The notes under the pieces were generated by a model that ran no database searches, was not told the origin of the DNA, and saw only the letters and a list, made by a program, of their open reading frames with translations. Below are positions 19,880 through 24,428 of a stretch of 64,000 bases of DNA, piece by piece. The position numbers and the translations under genes are program-made. This DNA is from Armatimonadota bacterium (lineage in GTDB: Bacteria > Armatimonadota > Fimbriimonadia > Fimbriimonadales > Fimbriimonadaceae), in assembly GCA_016223145.1 (NCBI GenBank), contig JACRPN010000001.1, positions 1-64,000 on the forward strand, written 5' to 3'. The number at the start of each line of letters is the position of its first letter. The stretch's first letter is position 1.

Positions 19880-21166
19880 CTATAGGACCATTATCCTGCC
19901 GTCGCCGGAGCGTTCTTTGCGCAGTTCGATCCTTCTCAGCAGGGCCGTCGCCTTCTCGACCGCAAAGTCGGTCTCATTGAGTTTGGGCGTGGGCGCTTCG
20001 ATGTCCACGTCGACGCCGTTGGCCTCCAGCCGGACCCCTTGCACCGAGACGTAGTCCATCATCGGATACTGGAGCACCCACCCTTCGGGGAGCTGGGCCA
20101 TGACCGAGACGAGCACCGCCCCAGCCGATTTCGTACCCAGCACGGGCGCGCCCTTGAGCTCCTTGAGCGCTTGGGCTGTGATTTCGGCGGCGCTGCCGGT
20201 TCCGCCGTTCACCAGCACGGCGATGTTCCCCTTGTACGTCGTCTTTCCGCGCCGGGGCATGAGCGGACGCTTCATCCAGGCCGCTATCTCCTTGATGTCC
20301 GCCGGTTTAGATGGGAAAACATCACCATAACGTCTCACCGCGCTCCGGTCCACAAACGTGCCGAACCCCGATCCCGACGGCAGCACGTGGCCCAGGAAAT
20401 CCAGCATGTTCAGCACCACGCCGCCACCGTTTCCACGCAAGTCCACGATCAAGTTGGGAACATCCTTGGCTTTCTCGAAAAGCTCGTCGATCTTGTTTGG
20501 GTTGTAGGCCGTGTCGAACGTGTGGACGGTCATGACGGCAGTCGTCGGATTCGCCATTTTGAGGGTGTCTTCGCGGATGTTGCTGTACTTGCGCCGCACA
20601 AGCTTGTAGGCCTTGACCTTGCCATCTCCGCCCTTGACTCGGATCTCGACCTTCGTGCCCTCGTCCCCCATCATCCCTGTGGTGGTGGTTAGCTTCTTGC
20701 CGTCAGCCTCCATGATCAGGTCGCCCATCTGGAGCCCGGCTTCCGAGGCCGGCGTATCCGGAAAGACGTTCATCACCCGGAGGCCGCCCTCTTCAAGCTG
20801 CACCTGAACGCCGATGCCGACGGTCTTCCGCTCGATGCGCGCCTTGGCGGCTTTCGGCGTCACCAAAACGATGTGGCTCACGCCAAAGTAGGCGCTCAGC
20901 TTGGAGTTGATGGCCTCTACAAGCTCGCTGTCGGTGGACGCCTTGTCGATGGCCGCCTTGTTCTGATCGAGGAACTCGGGCCACTTGGAAAAGTCCACAC
21001 CCGGGACGAAACAGTTGTTCAATACGAGCTTGCCCACCTGCTCGACCACGGCGTCTTTGGTGGCCTTTTCGAGCGGCACCCCCTGGGCGGCAGAGCCTCC
21101 CACGAGTGCAAGGGCCACTCCCACAGAAAGGAGCAGGTGTAAAAACAAGCTTGGTCGTTTCGGCAT
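19880..21166 (-). CDS. S41 family C-terminal-processing peptidase with PDZ domain
   Basis: 428 residues. Signal peptide about 1-27; N-terminal helical domain about 28-100; PDZ domain about 112-190 (VGIGVQVQLEEGGLRVMNV, TPASEAGLQMGDLIMEADG); S41 core about 205-410. The core shows DLRGNGGGVVLNMLDFL, the catalytic Ser region LVNGGTGSAAEITAQAL and the general-base Lys region GTKSAGA. It should cleave periplasmic proteins near their C-termini. It is intact, unlike the S41 pseudogene at 408-1649. ATG start. Confidence 0.9.
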   Translation of the reverse strand: MPKRPSLFLHLLLSVGVALALVGGSAAQGVPLEKATKDAVVEQVGKLVLNNCFVPGVDFSKWPEFLDQNKAAIDKASTDSELVEAINSKLSAYFGVSHIVLVTPKAAKARIERKTVGIGVQVQLEEGGLRVMNVFPDTPASEAGLQMGDLIMEADGKKLTTTTGMMGDEGTKVEIRVKGGDGKVKAYKLVRRKYSNIREDTLKMANPTTAVMTVHTFDTAYNPNKIDELFEKAKDVPNLIVDLRGNGGGVVLNMLDFLGHVLPSGSGFGTFVDRSAVRRYGDVFPSKPADIKEIAAWMKRPLMPRRGKTTYKGNIAVLVNGGTGSAAEITAQALKELKGAPVLGTKSAGAVLVSVMAQLPEGWVLQYPMMDYVSVQGVRLEANGVDVDIEAPTPKLNETDFAVEKATALLRRIELRKERSGDGRIMVL

Positions 21167-21242: not shown

Positions 21243-21629
21243 TTACTCTTCGGAGACTTCGACCTGAATGCCAATGGTCGCGATGATTTCTGCGGCGCGG
21301 CGGCATTCCTTCTCGGTCGAATAGTGGACCACGGACTTGCCCAGGTGGTCGACCTCCCAGGTTTCGATCTCGGCTTCGTCGAGCGAGCAGCCCGTCGCCG
21401 CCATCAGCACCATGATCACCTCGTCGTAGGTGTTGGTTTCGTTGTCAAAAACCGTGACGATCCAGCCGCCCTTTGCCGCTGGACCGCGCGATTTCTCCTT
21501 ATGCCTTTCGAGCGGCTCGATCACGCTCGCCTGCACTGCCATCGAGTGGCAGCGGCCGCCGAAGGTTACGAGTACCGAGAACTCGCTCTCACACGGACCT
21601 ATAACCGTCATTTGCCCCAGCTTCTCCAT
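21243..21629 (-). CDS. Divergent ClpS-like adaptor protein with N-terminal extension
   Basis: About 128 residues from ATG 21629; a GTG at 21698 would extend it through a low-complexity stretch overlapping the upstream gene. After a beta-rich extension of about 50 residues, the last 75 follow the ClpS fold: WIVTVFDNETNTYDEVIMVLMAATGCSLDEA, then EVDHLGK. Compared with the upstream copy, the conserved N-D-D pocket motif is changed to D-N-E, so recognition of N-degron residues may be altered or lost. It lies directly downstream of the first copy on the same strand and likely shares its transcript. ClpS proteins deliver substrates to Clp AAA+ proteases. Confidence 0.75.
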   Translation of the reverse strand: MEKLGQMTVIGPCESEFSVLVTFGGRCHSMAVQASVIEPLERHKEKSRGPAAKGGWIVTVFDNETNTYDEVIMVLMAATGCSLDEAEIETWEVDHLGKSVVHYSTEKECRRAAEIIATIGIQVEVSEE

Positions 21630-21685
21630 CCACCGCTCACCGCGCCCACTGGTTGGCCCATCGCCTATTCCCCGACTGGGCCCGT

Positions 21686-21973
21686 TCAGTCGTCCCACTC
21701 GCGCCGGACTTGGGTCTGCACGCCGATGCTTCCGATCATCGAGGCCACCACCTCACACTCGTCCCGCCCGGAGAAATGCACCGGCGCCTTTCCGTAGGTG
21801 TGCGCCTCCCAGGTCTCCATGTAGGCCTCGTTGAGCCCGCAGCCGGTCGCTTTCATCAGGATCTCGATGACGTCTTCAATCGGAGTGTGGTCGTCGTTCA
21901 GGATGACCACCATCCAGCGCCCGGTTCCCGTTGGGACCTCCAGAATCTCCGGCAACGCAAAAATCGTACTCAT
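21686..21973 (-). CDS. clpS: ClpS-like ATP-dependent Clp protease adaptor
   Basis: 95 residues. MVVILNDDHTPIEDVIEILMKATG (about 21-44) carries the NDD-x-T-P-x-E-x-V core that forms the N-degron pocket in ClpS, and EAHTYGKAPV supplies the conserved His-x-x-GKA. It lacks the long N-terminal tail needed by some ClpS for inhibition. It should bind N-end-rule substrates and hand them to ClpA or ClpC. First gene of a two-gene ClpS-like pair; its start lies inside the 3' end of the annotated frame of the YfhO-like gene. Confidence 0.85.
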   Translation of the reverse strand: MSTIFALPEILEVPTGTGRWMVVILNDDHTPIEDVIEILMKATGCGLNEAYMETWEAHTYGKAPVHFSGRDECEVVASMIGSIGVQTQVRREWDD

Positions 21974-24266
21974 CGTCGTTATCGGTACCCCAGCCTCGAT
22001 CGCCGCCGCAGGGCGACTTCTCAGAACCTATTGTACAAAACAATCTGGACTCTCGAATGCAGTTTTTTTTGCTAGGTCGCAGGGGCGTGTTTTTGAGGCT
22101 GTTTGGCGCGGCGGCCCGCGAAAGCAAGCGCGCCGAGCCGTTCGCGGTCGCAGACCATTGGCCGATGGCTCGATCCTTGACCACCAGGCGTCCTGGGCCC
22201 GTCGCCTTGACGTGAATCCCTGTGCACGACTCCTCAAGTATCTCGGCAGGGCCAGCGTGTGTGTACGCCCGGCCCTTTGACGGGATGGCGGCAGAAAACA
22301 GGCCGAGGCGGCTCGCGTCGTTTTGAAGGCCGGGCAACTGGGTCCGCGAGTAGATCCGGGTAACCCCAGCCTCGCCAAGCTTTGCCACATCGAAGCCTGG
22401 CTTAACGAACTTGATGTTTCCGTTGGCCGCAGGCGAGGCGTCTCCACCTGCGATCTCATCCAGGATTCGTGCCGAATCGCGGCTCATCAGCGAGTCGTAT
22501 CCCGCCAGGTCATGAATTCGCGCGATCGTTGCCGTGTTCGGCGGCATGGCGGCGTTGGCAGCTATGAGAAGCTCCCAGTCCCCGTTGAGGAAGGCGACGC
22601 GCTCGTGGGCTCCCGCGCCCAAGTCCACCCTTAGGTCAGAATCTCCCGACCGGATGAACCCCATGCCGAGCGTGAAGAACGGCGTCAGGGCGGCGGCCAC
22701 GAGCACAATGCCCTGAGCGCCGCGGATTCGCCTCGCCATCGCCTGCAGGCCGAAGGTGCAAGCCAACAGCACCACCGCGATGCCTGGAATGGCCGACGAG
22801 ACCCCGGCGAACGCGATCTTTCGCACGGCATCGGCGCTGACGCCTGGCATCCAGGATTCGAGTGACACGGCGTGGGAAAGGGCGGCGACCAGGTTCAGGG
22901 CCACCAGAACTCCGCCGACGAGCATTGTCAGGCGCACCTGCTTCCAGCCCGGGCGCTCGACTTCGATCCGGGTGAACCCAACCCCCGCCAATACGCAGGC
23001 GACGAGCACCACGAGCACCCCTGCACGCCCGGGAGAGCCGGTCGCCGACCAGCCAGGGACGCCAAAATAGAGGTACTGGTTAACTGGCGTACCGAACGCC
23101 ATCGCCAAGGCAAACGCGCCGGCAGCTACGAGCCCCCAATGCGCCGCGCGGAGCCGTCGCCAAGGCACAAACAGCAACCCGATGAAAGCGAGCGCACCGA
23201 CGCCGGTAGCCGACTCCGCGAAGTTGGCGCCGCGATGCTCGAAGGCCGGATAGTAGCTGCTGATCGGAGCGTCCTCTTCCCAGGGCTGGGTGGGATTGCC
23301 CAGAAGGGTGGGAAAGAGAATGCCGGCGGCCTCTGCCCCCGTCAGGGCGCCTGCCTGGTAAGCCGCGAAACCCTCAGCGGTCGGTACGTTGCGCCGATGC
23401 GACTCCTTGGAAAAGGCCAACACCTCTACGAACTGGGTCGAGGCGATACCGATGCCAAGCAGCACCGCGATCGCTGAGGCGGCGGCGCCACGCCAGGCGA
23501 CGGGCGAACGAAGGTTGGTGGAGAGCAAGGCAAGCGTGAGGATAAGCGCGGTGAGCAAGCCATAGGCGGCGAACTGCAGGTGCCCGGCAAGCAGCATCAT
23601 TCCGATGCAGGCCGCGAGAGCCGCCACGGCGGATAGGTTCAGGCCTTGAGGAGGCTGGCTGTCGGGTGGCTCATCGCTCTTTGTCGCGCGCTTGGCGGCT
23701 GGCACGAGGTGAAGCACGCACGCCAGCACCCACGGAATCCAGGCGACCGTCGATGGCACGCTTCCGAGTGAGAGCCAACCGAGCATAAAGGCCGACAGCG
23801 AGAAACCTGCGCCGGCAAGAACCGCGCCGAACTCGCGCGCGCCGAGGATGCGCGAGAGCCTAAACGCCCCGAGACCGGCCCAAAAGAGGTGGAGCCAGGC
23901 GAGCAGGGTGATGGCCAGGCTCGTAGGCAGATGGAGCAGCCCGAAGAGGATGTGCGGAGGGTAGAAAGCGCCCGACTGCGAGTTCGCCGCCAGGGGGGCG
24001 CCTGCAAGCTGATAGGGGTTCACCATCGGCGCTTGAAGCTTCCCCCAGGATTCGAAGACCAGGTCGCGCCAGCCGTAGAACTGAAGCGCGCCGTCCGCCT
24101 GGAGCACGTCCCAGGGCTGGGAAGTGGACTTGCCGAACCAAGGCGCCATCTGACGGATCTGATCGAAGGGGCCGATGGCTTCGCCGGTGAGCATGGGTTT
24201 CCAAAGAGGAAGGAGGGGTATGAGGGCCAGGAAGACGATGGGCCAGTGCCTCCGGATGAAGCTCAT
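21876..24266 (-). CDS. YfhO-family membrane protein, C-terminus probably truncated
   Basis: 796 residues from ATG 24266. N-terminal half: about a dozen transmembrane helices with YfhO-type motifs GPFDQIRQMAPWFG, WDVLQADGALQFYGWRD and NPYQLAGAPLAANSQSGAFYPP. C-terminal soluble part ends in a beta domain (GRLVVKDRAIGQWSATANGSARLL, about residues 690-712). In the family this domain continues with a W-x-x-V-x-x-P-x-G segment and often a last helix. Here the frame instead runs through a non-homologous stretch of about 80 residues and into clpS. The extra tail is unlikely to be functional; the true 3' end seems lost. YfhO proteins are linked to glycosylation of surface polymers. Confidence 0.75.
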   Translation of the reverse strand: MSFIRRHWPIVFLALIPLLPLWKPMLTGEAIGPFDQIRQMAPWFGKSTSQPWDVLQADGALQFYGWRDLVFESWGKLQAPMVNPYQLAGAPLAANSQSGAFYPPHILFGLLHLPTSLAITLLAWLHLFWAGLGAFRLSRILGAREFGAVLAGAGFSLSAFMLGWLSLGSVPSTVAWIPWVLACVLHLVPAAKRATKSDEPPDSQPPQGLNLSAVAALAACIGMMLLAGHLQFAAYGLLTALILTLALLSTNLRSPVAWRGAAASAIAVLLGIGIASTQFVEVLAFSKESHRRNVPTAEGFAAYQAGALTGAEAAGILFPTLLGNPTQPWEEDAPISSYYPAFEHRGANFAESATGVGALAFIGLLFVPWRRLRAAHWGLVAAGAFALAMAFGTPVNQYLYFGVPGWSATGSPGRAGVLVVLVACVLAGVGFTRIEVERPGWKQVRLTMLVGGVLVALNLVAALSHAVSLESWMPGVSADAVRKIAFAGVSSAIPGIAVVLLACTFGLQAMARRIRGAQGIVLVAAALTPFFTLGMGFIRSGDSDLRVDLGAGAHERVAFLNGDWELLIAANAAMPPNTATIARIHDLAGYDSLMSRDSARILDEIAGGDASPAANGNIKFVKPGFDVAKLGEAGVTRIYSRTQLPGLQNDASRLGLFSAAIPSKGRAYTHAGPAEILEESCTGIHVKATGPGRLVVKDRAIGQWSATANGSARLLSRAAAPNSLKNTPLRPSKKNCIRESRLFCTIGSEKSPCGGDRGWGTDNDDEYDFCVAGDSGGPNGNRALDGGHPERRPHSD
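22030..22057 (-). promoter_or_regulatory. Candidate promoter of the clpS pair
   Basis: On the minus strand TTCGAG (22052-22057) and TACAAT (22030-22035) are 16 nt apart, giving a start point about 50 nt before the clpS ATG. It lies inside the frame of the preceding YfhO-like gene, in an AT-rich patch, supporting the idea that this gene's real coding sequence ended earlier. Confidence 0.35.
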
Positions 24267-24428
24267 GGGCAATAGGATAGCGGATTCCTGGGTGTGGTGG
24301 AGGTCGGATAGTGGGTGAGGATGGAGAGGATGGTAAGGATAGAGACCTGGCATGAGGCCTCGCTTCTCGAGATCCGCGCCACCGGTATTGGCCAGTCGTC
24401 AATCCCCTGCGGCCTATTCCCTTCTGGA

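Follow-up and report, generated by a model that had tools for sequence, protein, structure and literature searches.

Here, we describe a tandem pair of clpS genes from an Armatimonadota bacterium of the family Fimbriimonadaceae (assembly GCA_016223145.1), located in a window of 64,000 nucleotides that comprises positions 1 to 64,000 of contig JACRPN010000001.1. Both products, called A and B in the following, belong to the ClpS family and have its fold, the pair is conserved under purifying selection, and Aat, ClpC and ClpP are present in the same genome. From comparison of these sequences we propose, with moderate confidence, that A and B are two ClpC adaptors which divide N-terminal specificity between them. 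Paired ClpS adaptors are already known from a few bacteria; new here is a tandem pair kept across a large lineage of little-studied bacteria. The literature searched contained no paper on ClpS in Armatimonadetes. The B-type pocket departs from a position called universal (Asp35), and B is a bacterial sequence nearer to the degron-reading domain of human UBR1/UBR2 than to E. coli ClpS. With roughly 85 sequences of the B-type and 58 of the A-type, a natural series is available from which to learn how the specificity of a ClpS pocket changes.

Two clpS genes and the N-terminal tail of copy B

A and B are arranged head to tail within 21243-21973, both on the minus strand (Table 1), and are the sole ClpS matches in the 3.87 Mb assembly. 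Both score above the Pfam ClpS (PF02617) cut-off of 23 bits, with E-values of 7e-13 for A and 9e-10 for B, and both miss the cut-offs of the NCBIfam ClpS equivalogs (at most 25 bits for A and 14.5 bits for B, versus cut-offs of 86-159). The two copies share 42% identity over 79 residues. AlphaFold (AF2) models, computed from a shallow alignment and with a pLDDT of about 65-88 in the core block, display the ClpS order of elements in each copy, and the top Foldseek matches of both models are all ClpS. The original prediction of two tandem ClpS-like genes is borne out by the Pfam scores and the shared strand, and the motifs are those first described, with NDDHTPIED and HTYGKA in A and, in B, DNETNTYDE in place of the former, followed by DHLGKS.

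Table 1. Coordinates of the clpS pair and adjoining features in the window
Feature	Position	Strand	Details
clpS copy A	21686..21973	-	95 aa; Pfam ClpS 48.7 bits; ClpS fold; A clade
clpS copy B	21243..21542	-	99 aa from ATG 21542; Pfam ClpS 38.6 bits
ClpS core of copy B	21246-21464	-	coding signal, fold
Upstream open frame, once read as beta-rich extension	21543..21698	-	GTG 21698 overlaps end of A
YfhO-like multi-pass membrane protein gene	22119..24266	-	tblastn 45% identity to same-genus relative
PDZ + S41 peptidase, carboxyl-terminal-processing type	19880..21166	-	Pfam Peptidase_S41 E 1.5e-29; directly downstream of the pair

A beta-rich extension of about 50 residues, which had been assigned to the N-terminus of B, could not be upheld. 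The frame in question scores -0.15 bits per codon, with the other two forward frames about equal, compared to +0.33 for A and +0.42 for B. The stretch is missing from two same-genus relatives, in which the gap between A stop and B core measures 107 nt versus 221 nt in the window, and it models at pLDDT < 50 almost throughout. On these three grounds the extension was rejected as a conserved domain, which 21543-21698 probably is not. Read from its ATG, B carries the tail MAVQASVIEPLERH, which resembles the M..IExPE tails of relatives and has the usual length of ~25 residues; in most relatives the start of B lies some 20-27 codons ahead of the core, with a comparable M..IExPE stretch. ClpS proteins ordinarily have a short flexible N-terminal tail, which goes into the ClpA channel in delivery (PMC9663308). 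Since some relatives can start B only at an M/V-ERL codon homologous to GTG 21698, B of the window may likewise start at this GTG and possess a longer tail; in one genus, a B tail of 40-45 residues is under purifying selection.

Conservation and ancestry of the pair

Searching with the B profile, we found at least two ClpS copies in 75 of the 85 genomes of the window's family and in all genomes of two sister families (8/8 and 1/1), and a single, different ClpS in the fourth family of the order. Among 54 loci read directly, 51 hold A and B adjacent and on the same strand, the three exceptions being two reduced 1.5 Mb genomes with A-type only and one locus at a contig end. One genome retains B alone. 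At loci L090 and L091, core coordinates place A upstream of B as well. The start of B often overlaps or adjoins the stop of A, which suggests translational coupling of the two genes. dN/dS values from close genome pairs amount to 0.02-0.14 across both copies and 0.02-0.11 for B, which is the better conserved copy with a mean pairwise identity of 61% vs 56% for A. The pair is real, co-directional and conserved over three families, and a recent decaying duplicate, the outcome named beforehand as speaking against it, is ruled out by this spread, the low dN/dS and the trees described below.

Some single genomes deviate from this general picture. The two reduced family genomes (L069 and L070; G133 and G134) have a single A-type ClpS and neither B nor Aat. 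At L074 (G068), the pocket of A is wrecked (QTG..G) and its branch very long while B is normal, so A can decay while B persists. No matches to B were found in plasmids, phages or viral contigs.

In trees of a 73-column core, A and B separate, A forming one clade nested among B-type sequences (SH-aLRT 97, or 92 without the motif columns) with the phylum's canonical-type ClpS as a separate outgroup. Single matches of equal strength to the B profile occur in five families outside the window's order, by which a restriction of the B-type to this order is ruled out, and some genomes outside the order hold a B-type beside a canonical-type ClpS located elsewhere. Given the nested position of A, the trees lend moderate support to B as the old, phylum-wide type and A as a later derivative found only in the window's order, with a polarity that depends on a short alignment and on rooting by a long outgroup branch. 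The trees thus point in the opposite direction to the original prediction, which took the first copy as original and the second as derivative, and B as a degenerate copy of A is rejected on the same nesting.

On the tree of A- and B-type rows, Asp35 requires about 9 changes and Thr38-Pro39 about 10; these residues are found in A copies only, and A of same-genus relatives reads NNAYNTVDE. From these repeated changes and the relatives' motif, we read the NDDHTPIED of window A as a secondary return, with NDDxTP regained several times among A copies. Two genomes deserve separate mention. G202, whose family lies outside the order, carries two copies that are not adjacent (L112 and L113), one B-type and one A-like (WEAH, GQA, VHF); L113, the copy with A-like residues, is placed outside the A clade. 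Within the order, the ClpS match L093 (G173) reaches 109.6 bits, far above the others, with a sequence that resembles the proteobacterial type, for which horizontal transfer or contamination is possible.

Pocket residues, protease partners and gene neighbourhood

Residue numbers follow E. coli, via gap-free alignment to PDB chains. The canonical triad Asn34/Asp36/His66 is present in window A and absent from window B, which carries D34, E36 and D66 together with N35 and N38. NDD-x-TP occurs in window A, is missing from most of its relatives and is found in none of 50 B copies, all of which have N35 and N38. The A pocket varies widely among relatives, and N35 is also present in 43 of 52 A. Position 34 of the 50 B is N or D, and position 36 holds D or E in all but four (S or P). 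At position 66, B copies have Asp (37) or His (13), while His is found in 48/52 A. Position 65 is Ala in 49/52 A and Ile or Val in every B, and position 71 is Ala in A and Ser or Cys in B. Counted over 34, 36 and 66, two acids are present in 43/50 B, and in 67/85 B-type sequences overall, compared to one in 44/53 A. In 85 B-type rows, residues 34 and 66 co-vary with a Fisher p of 4e-6, but only one supported independent pair is present on the tree, and the association may reflect phylogeny; the pattern at the three positions looks like a maintained charge. Lys84, a ClpA contact, is replaced by Val or Ala in almost every A and B copy, and acidic residues persist in both copies near 79-82 (ClpA contacts Glu79/Glu82), in an uncertain register.

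The pocket of the second copy is therefore divergent, as first stated, but not degenerate, since N35 and N38 are invariant and the B-type stands alone in five families. By its residues it appears as a conserved alternative pocket and, save for the invariant N35, as one of a kind known elsewhere. In Caulobacter ClpS, the equivalents of N34, D36 and H66 hold the alpha-amino group, according to a passage of PMC12493166 that cites the crystal structure, and one study calls Asp at position 35 universal and models this residue as the main ClpC contact (PMC6274998). In yeast Ubr11, a double mutant abolishes type-2 recognition (PMC4447728); in our own alignment, its changes correspond to D35N and a change at position 38. 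Because N35 and N38 match these mutated positions, B may fail to bind N-degrons in the usual way, which is our main doubt.

This doubt can be extended to a reading in which B no longer reads N-degrons and instead binds and regulates the ClpC N-domain, or competes or forms a mixed complex with A as an anti- or co-adaptor. The invariance of N35 and N38 at positions important for Ubr11 would fit, as would the fact that A and B are strictly linked, their genes overlapping or nearly so, and the precedent of plant ClpS1, which has a co-adaptor, ClpF (PMC7966870). We nevertheless consider such a role doubtful: the B-type lives without a tandem A in several families, in some genomes with a canonical ClpS elsewhere, and is thus independent of A, its core is under strong purifying selection, and most B retain two acids at the alpha-amino site.

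The genome contains one ClpP and one ClpC-like ATPase (two N-domain repeats, 835 aa); a further large ATPase of the Clp/Hsp100 kind, with 899 aa, is presumably ClpB, and no ClpA was found above the cut-off in this genome. Of the 85 family genomes, 77 possess Aat, the Leu/Phe-tRNA-protein transferase that generates N-degrons in E. coli, and the window's genome is among them. In our preferred reading of divided specificity, A and B would serve the single ClpC-ClpP protease as ClpS-type adaptors, each of them docking on the ClpC N-domain, holding the N-terminus of the target in its pocket and aiding handover by its flexible N-terminal tail. B would represent the older phylum-wide form, with a UBR1-like pocket of N/D34-N35-D/E36-x-N38-T39-Y/F40 plus D/H66, and A a later tandem duplicate, the specificities having split after duplication. 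A would then have approached the canonical NDDxTP pocket again on several occasions, for hydrophobic N-degrons such as Aat makes, while B would have retained two acids at its alpha-amino site and would prefer different N-termini. A specialised second adaptor, as originally suggested, is the likeliest reading, although not as a degenerate derivative of the first copy with an added domain. Divided specificity has a precedent in cyanobacterial ClpS1/ClpS2 (PMC7966870). Against it count the N35 of B, the loss of Lys84 in both copies and the genomes with A-type or B alone. More tentatively, and with a rather small chance of being correct, the B-type could be a distinct phylum-wide reader of N-termini, in which a two-acid site without Asp35 would accept substrates other than classical hydrophobic N-degrons, as a bacterial counterpart of the UBR1 pocket.

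The gene neighbourhood is a lead for the substrate class, not evidence of function. A YfhO-like gene immediately precedes the pair, on the same strand, in 41/54 loci, in nearly all of them 30-130 nt from the A core, with an assignment that is weak, as the Pfam YfhO match of a relative reaches only E 0.0033, below the cut-off. FtsH lies further upstream in 23/54 loci, and in 18/54, including the window, an S41 peptidase gene of the same strand follows the pair directly. These neighbours would agree with a pair that acts as an adaptor module for membrane quality control, tied to the YfhO-like protein and often to FtsH and S41, with envelope or membrane fragments as substrates. We regard this as improbable, since neighbourhood by itself does not prove a function, the YfhO assignment is weak, and, in the flanks read, B-type genes that stand alone outside the order lack a YfhO-like neighbour. 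A still less probable reading, in which B is a redundant dosage duplicate with a neutrally drifting pocket, would suit the common fold and family of the copies and the variable A pocket but is at odds with the better conservation of B, its fixed clade-specific residues, its phylum-wide occurrence and its low dN/dS.

In the flanks of L034-L088, the recurring order in the family is ftsH - TPR protein - yfhO-like - clpSA - clpSB - S41 peptidase. In the window, an open frame at 21876-24353 (minus strand) loses YfhO-like homology at ~22119 and continues into clpS A in another frame, while in relatives the YfhO-like gene ends 30-130 nt ahead of the A core. In the window's copy, a frameshift near 22119, by error or mutation, is possible.

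Comparison with known systems

Against the PDB, the B profile gives significant matches to UBR1/UBR2 alone (E 8e-7 and 2e-6), with no canonical ClpS below 0.7, the A profile also matches Arabidopsis and E. coli ClpS, and the canonical-type profile of the phylum has E. coli ClpS as its best match. Likeness to UBR1/UBR2 was judged by the profile match and Asp66, and both are found, D66 in the same 37 of 50 B, with the window among them. In UBR1, D263 replaces H66 in the domain that binds type-2 N-degrons (PMC8346999). Window B shares E36, S/T39, Y40, D/E41 and D66 with the human UBR1/UBR2 ClpS domain; however, UBR1 and UBR2 are giant ubiquitin ligases with D35, whereas B is a bacterial adaptor of ~100 residues with N35. 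The alpha-amino site of B (D34/E36/D66) thus resembles that of UBR1/UBR2 by its residues; B has no E3 context, and we do not class it as a UBR protein.

Canonical ClpS proteins of E. coli and Caulobacter have in common with the pair the Pfam family, the fold, the adaptor size and the short tail, and with A the triad N34/D36/H66. They differ from B at D34/E36/D66, N35, N38, T39 and Y40 and from both copies in Lys84, and the partner in the window's genome is presumably ClpC; no ClpA exceeds the cut-off. Actinobacterial ClpS (M. tuberculosis, M. smegmatis), the best Foldseek match of B, has the same D34 and N38 (residue table in PMC6274998) and works with ClpC1, but retains D35 and H66 and has P36.

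Similar substitutions are found in ClpS1 of Leptospira interrogans, which occurs together with a ClpS2. By published residues (PMC12493166), it shares with B the changes of H66 to Asp, M40 to Tyr and K84 to Val, and it still binds ClpA with the H-to-D and M40Y changes (PMC12493166); in contrast to the window pair, the two Leptospira genes lie apart, with clpS2 adjoining clpA. Cyanobacteria and Agrobacterium likewise possess two ClpS paralogues per cell, ClpS1 and ClpS2, and the cyanobacterial proteins both serve ClpC with different N-terminal preferences (PMC7966870). Unlike these pairs, the genes of the window are arranged in tandem, nearly overlap and were duplicated inside their own phylum.
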